NCBI GenBank assembly: GCA_011523395.1 | Contig: WTGW01000205.1 | Coordinates: forward strand, 1-53,853 | DNA length: 53,853 nt | Source: Acidimicrobiia bacterium | Lineage (GTDB): Bacteria; Actinomycetota; Acidimicrobiia; Spongiisociales; Spongiisociaceae | Direction of reading: 5' to 3' | Part shown: in pieces, positions 48,130 to 52,112 of the stretch | How the letters are laid out: every line of letters begins with the position of its first letter | How positions within the stretch are numbered: the first letter of the stretch is position 1 | Program-made: the position numbers and the translations under genes | Notes under the pieces: model-generated | What the model was told of the DNA's origin: nothing | The model's input: the letters and a program-made list of their open reading frames with translations, nothing else | The model's database searches: none

Positions 48130-48915
48130 TCAGCGCAGCTCTACAAGCCGGGCCAATAAGTCGGTTCGGTACCCCTCGGAGACAGCATCTGTGGTGAAGT
48201 CATCGAACATCACCGCAAGGTCATCAGGAGTCAGATTCCACGCATGTGCCACCAGAGCGTCGATCTCTACCAACAACCGCTGACGCTCACTCGGACCTAG
48301 GGGACCTACTCGCACTCCCGTCGCTTTGGCGAAGTCGGCGAAACGGTCATCCACAGCGGACAGTCGGGCCGCGCAGCGAGCCACTGCTTCGAAGTTCTCA
48401 TCATCGAGCCACGGGACGACCAGCCCTTCGAGAATGAAGAAGTTGACATGGATCTCCACAAACCGCCGCGCCTGCCAGTCAAAGGGAAGGCTGTTCATGA
48501 TGCCTAGGCAGGCAGCCTGAACCATCTCGTCGCCATCGATGAAAGCTAGATACGGTGACGTGTTCGTTAGGAAGACCTCAGGAGGCACGAGGCAGGCAAT
48601 CACCGTTCGAGAATCGTTAGCTCGGCTTACATCTCGGAATGCCACCCGCGCCCTGCCAAGTTCTGTCAGGACCGCACGACGCCGGTCAGCTACCGGCACA
48701 AAGCGTGCTATCTGTGATCTGAGGCCAGGGCGTTTCTTACGAACCTTATTCCAGACCGCGTCGGACTCCGAACACCAGCGAGCCTCCGCGCCGTGGGGAT
48801 CGTATTGGTAGAAGCTCCCGCCCTTCCAGAGTGGCCGGCTATTCACGACGACGTCCGGGCGAGTCCAGAGGTGGCGATCCTGAGTTTCGTCCAGTTCCCT
48901 GACAGGGAAGCCCAA
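48130..48915 (-). CDS. C-terminal target-recognition part of the methyltransferase, split off
   Basis: A 261-residue ORF resembling the C-terminal DNA-recognition region of Eco57I-type methyltransferases ('GFPVRELDETQDRHLWTRPDV', 'VAFRDVSRANDSRTVIA', 'GIMNSLPFDWQARRFVEIHVNFFIL'). It has no methyltransferase motifs of its own. Its only start is TTG 48915, with no strong ribosome site, and its frame stays open upstream through the dinucleotide repeat into the large methyltransferase gene. With one repeat unit fewer the two would be a single protein. It may be made separately at low level or only after slippage. Confidence 0.85.
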   Translation of the reverse strand: MGFPVRELDETQDRHLWTRPDVVVNSRPLWKGGSFYQYDPHGAEARWCSESDAVWNKVRKKRPGLRSQIARFVPVADRRRAVLTELGRARVAFRDVSRANDSRTVIACLVPPEVFLTNTSPYLAFIDGDEMVQAACLGIMNSLPFDWQARRFVEIHVNFFILEGLVVPWLDDENFEAVARCAARLSAVDDRFADFAKATGVRVGPLGPSERQRLLVEIDALVAHAWNLTPDDLAVMFDDFTTDAVSEGYRTDLLARLVELR

Positions 48916-48964
48916 GCCACAGGTGGCGGTCGTTTGTTTCGTGCAAGTCTGTGACGGGGAAGAC
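48862..48964 (-). repeat. Imperfect 51-bp duplication in two frames
   Basis: Copy 1 (48964-48914) and copy 2 (48912-48862) start 52 bp apart and match at about three quarters of positions. Both encode the same motif, GVFPVTDLHETNDRHLW and GFPVRELDETQDRHLW, but in different reading frames. It directly follows the dinucleotide tract. Confidence 0.8.
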
Positions 48965-48968: not shown

Positions 48969-51900
48969 CTAGACTTGTTCTCTCTCTCTCTCTCTCTCTC
49001 TCTCTCTCTCTCTCTTATCGCTGCCGAAGGCGAATAGATTCCCGACACGTACCTTCGCGAGCACATCGGCTTCCGGCTGCGTACCGACGAGCGGAGTCAT
49101 CCAACCTGGACCGAACCCCGTGGAGGCGATGCGGACTCCATTGCCTCGCGACTGCTGGGTCCACTCCTCCCGTGAGGCTGCGACCCCCGCAATCTCTACG
49201 CGATGATCCTCTTTGGGTTGGGTTCGCTCGGCTACCACCAACGCGACGGAGTACTGAGGATGGGTGTCGAAGATCCATCTCCGCCTGTTCAGGAGGAAAT
49301 CAATTCGTCGGGTTGTCACTCCACGGAACAACCAGCCACGGAATCCGCGTGATCCCATGTTTATGAAGGCACTCCTCGGCAGTACAACCCCAATGGATCC
49401 TCTCTGTCGACTGAGCTGCCGGTACCGCTGGCAGAAGTACTTGTACAGGTCGGGGTCTCCAGCCATCGCTTCGTACTCTCCTGCAGCCAATGCCTCTCTT
49501 TGTAAGGCGACCCGGTCGCGCTCTTCGGCGAGAAGCCCCGGCAACTCGGGGCGATCTCTGATCAGGTCTTGGATTGCCCTGCCTCGGATGGTGGCGGGCA
49601 GTCCGTTGATGCCAGGCCTGTGCATGACATAGAAAGCAAGCTCCTCAACAGTTACCTCTTCCCAGGGGGGATTTCCCACTACCACGTCGAACCCAGGCCG
49701 TTCCCGGCTGGGGTCGAACACCCTCGGAAACGCAAGTGGCCAATGGAGGAATCGGTGCTCCTTCCCCAGCTGGCTGGCAGCCCTGATCAAATACCGGCCA
49801 TGCGTGTCGGCGTCTCCTGAGATCACGTCGAGCGCATGGGTGTCTACGTATCTGCGTGTGTCAAGGCCGAATCCTTCAGCTACCCACAGGTCGAACAGTT
49901 GGTGGGCACGTTCGGTCGCCGCCCATGCTTCGGTGTCAGCAACCTTGCTGGCCTCGACCTCTTCGGGTGTGCGATCGTCGATGTCTGCCAGGCGGGCCAC
50001 CGCTGTGATGGCATCACCGAGAGCGTCCAGCAGGTGGTCATACCAGATGGTCCCTACCTTTCCTACGGTCTCGGGCGATGCAACTCCGAGCAGGGAATCA
50101 CCGACGATCACGTTACGGTCCAGATAGGACAGCGACAGTCCTGGCACGAAGGAAGCCAGCCACAGGGACATGAGAGCGATCTCGGCGCCCATCGGGCTCA
50201 CGTCTACCCCGAAGACGCAGTGCTTCAAGATCAGGCGACGCAGCAGCGCTGCATCGTCCACTCCGCCTCCGGCGGATGTGCCGGCGCGTAGCCGGGCAAG
50301 GTCCGTGCTGATACCGGGGAGCGGCGTCTCGGCCAGGAAACGAACCGTCATGTCGGCCAGTGTTTCCACCACTTGCACCAGGAAATGGGCACTACCGCAA
50401 GCGGGATCCAGTACCGAGAACGTGAACAACTCACGTACCGCTGCGTCCGGGTCGGTTTCTGCGGTAGCCCGTACTGTCTCCAGGTGACGCTCGAACGTGG
50501 GCACGACCGCGCCTCGGACCAGATGTTGCACGAGTTCAGCGGGCGTGTAGTAGACGCCGCCGGCTTTGCGGCCACCCTCGTGGGTCTGCCACAGCAGTTC
50601 TCCGACACCTATCTCGGGACGGGAGTCGTCCGGCACGTAGCGGTCCTGCTTACGGTCATAGCGGAGGGGCCGGTCGGCCACCGACAGGCGCAAGCTCAGC
50701 AGAGCCTCATATATGTGCCCTAGGTGGCCGATCTCTAGCGACGAGTAGTCGATCCCCCGGTTTCCTGAGTTGTCCCAGCCGACCGCGAGGAGAAGCCGGG
50801 CGAAGTGCGGGTCGGTCAACTCCACACGCTCCAGTAGGTCAGCGCCCTCGAAGTCGGTAGGGGCGAACAGTGAACCGTTGTAAGCGGGAACGTCCCAGGC
50901 CCGGTTTCCGCTCCGCATCGCTTGCACTAGCACCGTGAACTGGGCCCACAGAGCGGTCGAGCCCTCAGTCCAATTCCCCTCCGTCTCAGCCGCTTCGGCG
51001 ACCAGCCCGGTAAGTGACTTCCTCCAGTAGGTGGTGTTGTCCATTGGTAGGAAGCCGGAGCCTTCCGCATAGAGTATGAACAGGAGCCGGAACATCAGAG
51101 TGAGGGCGGCCTGTTCCAAATGCTCCCTCTGAGTGTCGTCTTCGATGTCCTCGCCGCTATCGATGATCCACCGGTCTAGCCCGCCTGCAAGCGCCGGAAA
51201 CGCATCGAAGCGGATCGTACGATCTAGGCGCTCGCGTAGCTCCGTGCCGAAACGATGAGCCTCGACCTGCAGTTCGGCTAATCGGTTGTCGGACAAATAC
51301 GGAGGCGAGAGCAGCGCCAGGAGCGGCTTACGGTCGTGGTCGAGCAGGTGGGTGTCGAAGTCGAGCCACTCCTGGGTCGATGCTGCATCGAATAGTCGGA
51401 ACCGTCCGCCGTATGCCAGCAACCCGTAGGGAGCCCCAGATGCTCGGCAGTCCCGCGCCAGCAGTCCCTCCGGCGGGCGCCCCTGCTCATCTAGCCGTGT
51501 GAACGCCCTCGCGCTGTTCTTCGGATGCACCACAGCAACGGGTCGATCCTCGTGGCGCGCCAGATATCCCCGGGTTGGCAACTGTTCCAATGTATACCCG
51601 AGCTTTGTCAGGATCGCCCTCCACTCGTCTGACGGCCTCAGCTCCGAAGTCGCCGCAGTCGCATCGGCCCACATCGTCGCGTTCTCCCTGAAACGCACCT
51701 CGACGGTATGTCGGGACAGCAACCCTTCCATGTGGACTCCATGACCCCCCAGGCGGACGATCTCTTCCGCCAGATGACGAACGGAATCGAGTGCTCCCAT
51801 CTCCCCGGTTTCGTCGATGGCGCGATCCAACGCCTCAGCGTCAACCGAGCGGATCGGCGTGTCCGCCGACGCAGGACCGAGAACACGCAACCAGCCCGCC

Positions 51901-52112
51901 CGGCCCGGATCATCCGCGACCAGCAGATAGCTCACTGGCCTGTTGCCAACGCGCTCCCGCCACCGAGCCCGCATGCTGCGCTCAGACGGATCGAGCGCAA
52001 CCGCCACCTCGAAGCCCCGAACTACCACCACACCACCGGTACCGGCCCGCGTCGGCGCGGGCTTCCCAGTCCCGCGGGCCACCAGAAGGCGCAAAAGCTC
52101 CACGGCGTTCAC
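48969..52112 (-). CDS. Eco57I-like DNA adenine methyltransferase, truncated at a repeat tract
   Basis: A 1047-residue class I SAM-dependent N6-adenine methyltransferase. A large N-terminal region (1-500) has no clear motif. Then come 'GGVYYTPAELVQHLV' (about 518-532), SAM-binding DPACGSAHF (569-577) and catalytic NPPWEEV (814-820), after 'LHWPLAFPRVF'. It should modify an asymmetric DNA site in a restriction or DISARM/BREX-like setting. The chain ends in (Arg-Glu)n encoded by the microsatellite, without a proper recognition domain; that domain is encoded in another frame just downstream. GTG start. In this state the enzyme is probably inactive or altered. Confidence 0.92.
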   Translation of the reverse strand: MNAVELLRLLVARGTGKPAPTRAGTGGVVVVRGFEVAVALDPSERSMRARWRERVGNRPVSYLLVADDPGRAGWLRVLGPASADTPIRSVDAEALDRAIDETGEMGALDSVRHLAEEIVRLGGHGVHMEGLLSRHTVEVRFRENATMWADATAATSELRPSDEWRAILTKLGYTLEQLPTRGYLARHEDRPVAVVHPKNSARAFTRLDEQGRPPEGLLARDCRASGAPYGLLAYGGRFRLFDAASTQEWLDFDTHLLDHDRKPLLALLSPPYLSDNRLAELQVEAHRFGTELRERLDRTIRFDAFPALAGGLDRWIIDSGEDIEDDTQREHLEQAALTLMFRLLFILYAEGSGFLPMDNTTYWRKSLTGLVAEAAETEGNWTEGSTALWAQFTVLVQAMRSGNRAWDVPAYNGSLFAPTDFEGADLLERVELTDPHFARLLLAVGWDNSGNRGIDYSSLEIGHLGHIYEALLSLRLSVADRPLRYDRKQDRYVPDDSRPEIGVGELLWQTHEGGRKAGGVYYTPAELVQHLVRGAVVPTFERHLETVRATAETDPDAAVRELFTFSVLDPACGSAHFLVQVVETLADMTVRFLAETPLPGISTDLARLRAGTSAGGGVDDAALLRRLILKHCVFGVDVSPMGAEIALMSLWLASFVPGLSLSYLDRNVIVGDSLLGVASPETVGKVGTIWYDHLLDALGDAITAVARLADIDDRTPEEVEASKVADTEAWAATERAHQLFDLWVAEGFGLDTRRYVDTHALDVISGDADTHGRYLIRAASQLGKEHRFLHWPLAFPRVFDPSRERPGFDVVVGNPPWEEVTVEELAFYVMHRPGINGLPATIRGRAIQDLIRDRPELPGLLAEERDRVALQREALAAGEYEAMAGDPDLYKYFCQRYRQLSRQRGSIGVVLPRSAFINMGSRGFRGWLFRGVTTRRIDFLLNRRRWIFDTHPQYSVALVVAERTQPKEDHRVEIAGVAASREEWTQQSRGNGVRIASTGFGPGWMTPLVGTQPEADVLAKVRVGNLFAFGSDKREREREREREREQV
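48979..49015. repeat. (TC)18 / (GA)18 dinucleotide microsatellite
   Basis: Eighteen uninterrupted TC units plus one T, read as GA on the coding minus strand, encode (Arg-Glu)n at the end of the methyltransferase. Eighteen units lead to a TAG at 48971-48969. Seventeen units would join the frame of the downstream 261-residue ORF (total 1326 residues). Nineteen would read copy 1 of the 51-bp duplication and stop at 48839. This is the layout of a phase-variation switch. Confidence 0.9.

Follow-up and report, generated by a model that had tools for sequence, protein, structure and literature searches.

An Eco57I-like N6-adenine methyltransferase gene on the minus strand of a 53,853-nucleotide stretch of Acidimicrobiia DNA (contig WTGW01000205.1, assembly GCA_011523395.1; this whole stretch is called the window) carries a (GA)18 tract at the junction of its catalytic part and its target recognition domain (TRD). 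Behind the tract, two homologous segments lie in different reading frames. We read the locus, with a probability of roughly 0.7, as a phase-variable system of a Type IIG-like methyltransferase and a phospholipase D (PLD)-SNF2 helicase, in which slippage would select the recognition segment; the tract would act as segment selector as well as on/off switch.

Repeat tract and reading frames in the window

From GTG 52112, the gene runs into (GA)18 plus one base, 37 bp in total. With the 18 units found, the frame reads ...REREQV-TAG and ends at the stop 48971-48969, giving a product of 1047 amino acids (aa). With 17 units, the frame is open to 48130 and encodes 1326 aa (1328 aa with 20 units), and with 19 units it ends at TAG 48841-48839 after 1091 aa, the same end being reached with 16 units after 1089 aa. 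An earlier note, made from the sequence of the window, had described the (GA)18 with its in-frame TAG and the 17-unit fusion; the tract and the arithmetic were confirmed, the fusion was collinear with full-length homologues, and the placement of a frame-shifting repeat at the catalytic/recognition junction is supported. The same note had seen an ON/OFF switch, to which an extra unit would add a third, short end. It is true that 18 units truncate and 17 fuse, and that the third end lies at 48839. The description is incomplete, as the frame of this end also reads a segment: it represents a conserved state with a complete homologous segment, and its stop falls on a start codon of the TRD, so the gene is not simply ON/OFF. 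Both segments and the GTG/TAG overlap (Table 1) had been overlooked.

The tract is the only dinucleotide run of at least five units in the window. No (GA)8 or longer was found elsewhere in the 3.1-Mb genome by one pattern search, as distinct from a full repeat census, and (GA)8 arose in 0/100 dinucleotide-preserving shuffles of the window. This absence from the shuffles, together with the uniqueness in window and genome, argues that (GA)18 is not due to chance. It is a tandem repeat inside an open reading frame (ORF), its unit is not a multiple of 3 and the frame follows the unit number, as in slipped-strand (simple sequence repeat) phase variation. We consider it highly likely that the tract is phase-variable.

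The two segments behind the tract are, in order, the H type (TDLHETNDRHLW) and the D type (RELDETQDRHLW). Slipped-strand mispairing in (GA)n would pick one of the three frames downstream. Frame 0 (n = 18, as found) meets an immediate stop, includes neither recognition segment nor TRD and is presumably inactive. Frame D (n = 17, 20) would pass the H copy as a meaningless linker and then read the D segment and the TRD as a single-chain enzyme. Frame H (n = 16, 19) would read the H segment and stop on a TAG overlapping the GTG of the TRD frame, and the TRD would probably be made as a separate chain by re-initiation. Such a split enzyme is proposed with moderate confidence from the overlap, which has the same 5-nt offset in three relatives of the window's branch (L034, L042 and L048). 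Together with a third type, Q, seen in relatives, H and D would be exchangeable forms of the first strand and loop that open the TRD, probably recognising different bases. With alternative segments at hand (up to three in relatives), a one-unit slip would re-aim or disable the enzyme, not merely toggle it.

Copies, selection and exchange in relatives

The design is shared by 22 multi-copy genes, window included, from Actinomycetota and Gemmatimonadota. The order of the copies is always Q (QGDLN), H (AELH), D (RELD), no two copies share a frame, and none of the spacings (49, 52, 65, 68 and 74 nt) is divisible by 3. All three types, each in a frame of its own, occur in 12 distinct genes (L005, L135, L136, L137/L170, L171-L178, with L137/L170 counted once). 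Repeat units at the sites are 1, 2, 4, 5, 7 or 8 nt long; units of 3 or 6 nt do not occur. Relatives with H then D carry (AG)7 (L034), (CCAG)30 (L042) and (CCCA)7 (L048), and a second branch, 33-38% identical and found in the window's own bacterial family, has (GA)15, (GTCC)7(GACC)19, mixed ACCA/ACCG arrays or (ATCC)11(AACC)12 at the junction. Other loci in the same bacterial class bear G, C, CT, GA, CAGC, heptamer or octamer tracts. Across about 494 kb of sequence from these loci, long repeats are almost confined to these sites. L032 shows a different solution at the same junction: a lone D segment with a poly-G immediately behind it.

Adjacent to the TRD, a frame either continues into it or stops at an ATGA/GTGA that overlaps the TRD start (by 5 nt in the window's branch); the one exception seen is L171, where the D-frame stop lies 8 nt ahead of an ATG. 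Across the genes, the states found were OFF (window, L006, L007, L014), Q (L005), H (L042, L170, L172) and D (L034, L048, L021, L174, L180), the rows for L048, L014 and L138 having been read by eye from the sequence. An H-type segment, YAELHRTSD, was also seen at the same place in a haloarchaeal gene annotated as PglX (L183:817-4653), which implies that the segment is old and widespread.

Selection was assessed by the ratio of nonsynonymous to synonymous differences per site (pN/pS). In nine three-copy genes, own-frame ratios were 0.23 for Q, 0.26 for H and 0.25 for D, and those of the other two frames 0.85-2.33. For the H copies of the window and L034, a single short pair that is weak taken alone, the ratio was 0.21 in the own frame and 1.42 and 1.45 in the others. 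These values indicate that each copy is under purifying selection in its own frame only. Related genes are not independent samples, but as a relic would lose its own-frame codon structure, the reading of the H copy as a pseudogene or relic was rejected. This bears on a plain ON/OFF switch, in which the D frame alone would be active and the H copy would be a harmless leftover of tandem duplication. Frame 0 is clearly OFF in four genes including the window, and in the window D alone continues into the TRD, as such a switch predicts. It does not account for the own-frame conservation of H, nor for the persistence of copy order, frame offset and stop/start overlap across two phyla. D is also not privileged, since no copy at all runs into the TRD in L136, L137, L172, L174 and L175, and there are tract-free genes in which H or Q by itself is the functional segment. 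We consider the plain switch unlikely.

Comparative evidence that such tracts change fast came from L137 and L170, which are 99.75% identical over 6754 bp and differ by internal indels at three tracts only: G11/G9, (CT)14/(CT)11 and G12/G11. The first tract puts L137 out of frame; L170 reads through to H. Thus close relatives with this design do not agree in repeat number; a single fixed number everywhere, which would have spoken against a switch, is not what was found. Homologues do not always encode two proteins either, as relatives with one uninterrupted ORF exist. The view that such a tract is unusual in an actinobacterial Eco57I-type gene is not supported: same-junction tracts recur across Acidimicrobiia and Gemmatimonadota, and there is a precedent in pglX (see below).

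The recurrence also bears on a decaying gene or assembly artefact, in which a microsatellite would have grown in a pseudogene of a draft genome. The genome is indeed a draft of 239 contigs and the gene is truncated as found. In a few other draft genomes (L095, L135, L176), homopolymers of G52, C51 and C40 stand beside N runs or contig ends; these are probably assembly noise and were not used. The 37-bp tract, in contrast, is shorter than ordinary reads, the frames on both sides of it are intact and conserved, same-place tracts occur in independent assemblies, one of them a 9-contig genome (G011), and the copies show own-frame selection. A decaying gene or an artefact is very improbable.

Tract-free homologues have one uninterrupted segment at this place. 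Among 29 tract-free orthologues, each with one type, Q was found in 7, H in 11 and D in 11, and their tree calls for 11 type changes where 2 would suffice; close pairs, L098/L108 among them, differ in type. Alignment revealed the types to differ in covarying residues (RxxD, AxxH, Q...N) in an otherwise shared frame. Alternative use of the H and D frames over evolutionary time is held with high confidence for the family and with good confidence for the window.

A switch of subunit architecture, with a fused methyltransferase-TRD in the D frame and a methyltransferase plus separate TRD in the H frame, would alter activity or assembly, not specificity. It would fit the start/stop overlaps, and in Helicobacter canadensis a poly-G sets fused versus separate proteins (PMC2823697). 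It leaves unexplained the discrete RELD, AELH and QGDLN variants and the frequent exchange of the single variant in tract-free orthologues, and several three-copy genes are split in every frame, yet keep three variants. We regard it as quite unlikely, and prefer selection of recognition segments.

When the TRD of homologue L036 was modelled (predicted local distance difference test, pLDDT, 80; predicted template modelling score 0.82), the segment formed the first strand and the following loop. The top Foldseek matches of this model were M.BseCI, CamA with DNA, MmeI with DNA and PglX/BrxX. A specificity determinant would be expected to take the form of such a discrete, exchangeable segment at the TRD start, and we hold with moderate confidence that its exchange would alter the recognised base.

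Several points weigh against selection of recognition segments. The specificity role of Q, H and D is deduced from position, covarying residues and analogy. The fold matches have weak E-values (best 4e-3), though nearly all are of one fold class, and a longer AlphaFold model of methyltransferase plus TRD was poor (pLDDT 54) and was not used. In the window, the H frame appends 25 unrelated residues past its segment and the GTG of the TRD has no obvious Shine-Dalgarno sequence, so that the H-frame restart could be weak, and in the D state GA-encoded and out-of-frame residues form a linker that may affect the enzyme. The 22 genes share ancestry, so their counts are not independent events, and direct repeat-length variation comes from the related locus L137/L170, not from the window's own species. 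We infer that each state would be expressed, that a split enzyme would be active and that DNA specificity would change with the frame.

A further variable position, termed site 1, lies inside the methyltransferase domain of nine relatives, where two staggered segment copies (NHKGWVFEGVH/NTKHWAFDGVD) are always 92 nt apart. The 5-nt repeat units mentioned above belong to this site, and the own-frame pN/pS of its copies is 0.20 and 0.21. By alignment via the haloarchaeal PglX, site 1 corresponds to about 589-600 of BrxX; the specificity regions of PglX are 591-600 (a loop) and 684-838 (PMC11341690).

In 8/9 of these relatives (L005, L136, L137, L170, L171, L172, L176, L179), the frame of the second site-1 copy ends in GGGGG-TGG-CTT/CCT-TGA (candidate frameshift stretch AGGGGGTGGCTTTGA), and a +1 shift would regain the main frame. 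We take this signal to be closely like the frameshift site of prfB, the gene for release factor 2 (RF2). The window has no site 1, and the RF2-type signal (AGGGGG, 3-nt spacer, CTT TGA) is absent from its locus. A third repeat site (G10-G24) was observed at the end of the first TRD in L136, L137, L170, L171, L174 and L175. It is followed by a second complete TRD gene, and in L174 also by a third, as spare recognition domains in tandem.

Relation to known switches

Frameshift-mediated specificity switching is proven for a Type IIG enzyme of Helicobacter pylori (PMC3936762). JHP1272 (HP1353-HP1354) is likewise a Type IIG-like enzyme with repeat-tract frameshifts, where a first switch governs activity and a second one recognition at particular base positions, and the added piece resembles part of a TRD (PMC3936762). 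The present genes correspond to it as sequence architecture, in that a frameshift adds or changes a recognition segment. The C-tract of JHP1272, however, adds or withholds one extra C-terminal domain, whereas the present family has two to three homologous short segments in tandem, one per frame, at the TRD start, with start/stop overlaps and repeat units of 1-8 nt.

The G-tract in Streptomyces coelicolor pglX also makes an actinobacterial defence adenine methyltransferase phase-variable from within the gene, but it belongs to a four-gene Pgl system, is described as ON/OFF only, and alternative segments are not reported (PMC4365076). Late-gene slippage in H. canadensis likewise leads to alternative C-termini and to fused versus separate ORFs (PMC2823697); in that species the alternatives are short, unrelated ends instead of homologous copies conserved per frame.

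The RF2 frameshift resembles the site-1 signal of relatives, where AGGGGG-TGG-CTT-TGA ends the second copy and a +1 shift rejoins the main frame; it differs in that the relatives place the signal after a slippage-selected segment and not in autoregulation.

In open-licence papers, we found no description of a repeat followed by homologous alternative segments that are stored one to each reading frame. We see about an even chance that the family represents a previously undescribed mode of diversification, in which tandem segments, one per frame behind a slippage tract, are swapped without recombination, related loci combining two to three sites, an RF2-like frameshift and spare TRDs into combinatorial specificities, and the window being the two-segment form. 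If so, copying slippage at one repeat would suffice to redirect a defence enzyme and, with it, the host epigenome, all three frames serving as storage. Such a system would be a counterpart, working without recombination, to the shuffling of Type I specificity genes, and it would operate in uncultured environmental bacteria, not in host-adapted pathogens. RELD, AELH and QGDLN would provide testable residue sets for decoding TRD specificity, and such genes are easily mistaken for pseudogenes in draft genomes.

Gene identity, partner gene and neighbourhood

Pfam placed an Eco57I domain in the methyltransferase (E 5.6e-15). The best PADLOC match was REase_MTase_IIG PDLC03620 (1378 positions, E 2.1e-79), of which positions 274-1047 fall on the first ORF and 1198-1353 on the second. 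This single profile spanning both ORFs, together with the uninterrupted ORF of relatives, supports the two-ORF state of the window. A gamma-class N6-adenine methyltransferase (NPPW, Eco57I domain) followed by a TRD is the arrangement of Type IIG/IIL enzymes, and it comes as a single chain only when the D frame is read or when the homologue has no tract. Pfam gave methylase domains only and no nuclease domain in the methyltransferase chain, for which reason it is called Type IIG-like only; a PLD nuclease-like domain sits in the adjacent helicase. The pair of methyltransferase and PLD-SNF2 helicase recurs in nearly all homologous loci. Switching of a whole operon, as had been suggested, is not supported: the methyltransferase frame alone changes, and the helicase starts by itself at 48129.

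Table 1. Features of the methyltransferase/helicase locus (window coordinates)
Feature	Position	Strand	Remarks
Eco57I-like N6-adenine methyltransferase ORF as found (18 GA units)	48969..52112	-	1047 aa, GTG start, TAG stop; Pfam, PADLOC
Slippage tract, (GA)18 plus one base	48979..49015	-	Unique (GA)8+ in genome; none in shuffles
Fused enzyme extent at n = 17, 1326 aa	48130..52112	-	Full-length homologues (L033 etc.)
H-type segment VFPVTDLHETNDRHLW	48917..48964	-	In frame at n = 16, 19, 22; pN/pS against L034
D-type segment GFPVRELDETQDRHLW	48865..48912	-	In frame at n = 17, 20; same frame runs on into TRD
Stop/start overlap GTGAATAG	48839..48846	-	H-frame stop TAG 48841-48839 overlapping TRD-frame GTG 48846-48844; candidate translational-coupling restart
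TRD and C-terminal part, TRD frame, 238 aa from GTG	48130..48846	-	PADLOC profile; TRD model of homologue
PLD(HKD)-SNF2 helicase, conserved partner	44965..48129	-	ATG directly after methyltransferase stop

With PglX/BrxX of bacteriophage exclusion (BREX) systems and with MmeI, the gene shares a gamma-class adenine methyltransferase followed by a TRD, and the regions known to set their specificity align with the variable sites. It differs from BREX in scoring far below the NCBIfam PglX cut-off (NF033452, 25.9 bits against 500), in the absence of BREX core genes among the scanned neighbours and in its PLD-SNF2 helicase partner. For class 1 of the defence island system associated with restriction-modification (DISARM), DrmD reached 119 bits against a cut-off of 610, no drmA or drmB was found among the scanned neighbours, and the DrmMI score of the methyltransferase was below that of the IIG profile. 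As both curated cut-offs, for PglX and DrmD, were failed, the locus is neither BREX nor DISARM on present evidence.

No relative of the window protein or of a 483-aa homologue fragment was found in viral contigs, plasmids gave distant relatives only (<35% identity among the matches listed), and a sequence search of Protein Data Bank chains gave no close relative. In the homologue L049, most of the TRD is deleted and the helicase is intact, a fixed loss-of-recognition form.

A DUF222/HNH endonuclease gene (43559-44881) lies between the helicase and two genes for proteins of 521 and 359 aa. We rejected all three as components of the system, since the 521- and 359-aa genes are unmatched in homologous loci and the HNH gene is only weakly matched. 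Elsewhere in the window, a (GGTCTC)4 hexamer repeat at 32284-32308 is frame-neutral, and at the contig's extreme end (1-51) a (GGGCAGT)7 heptamer array grades into a second array and may be the reason why the contig ends there.

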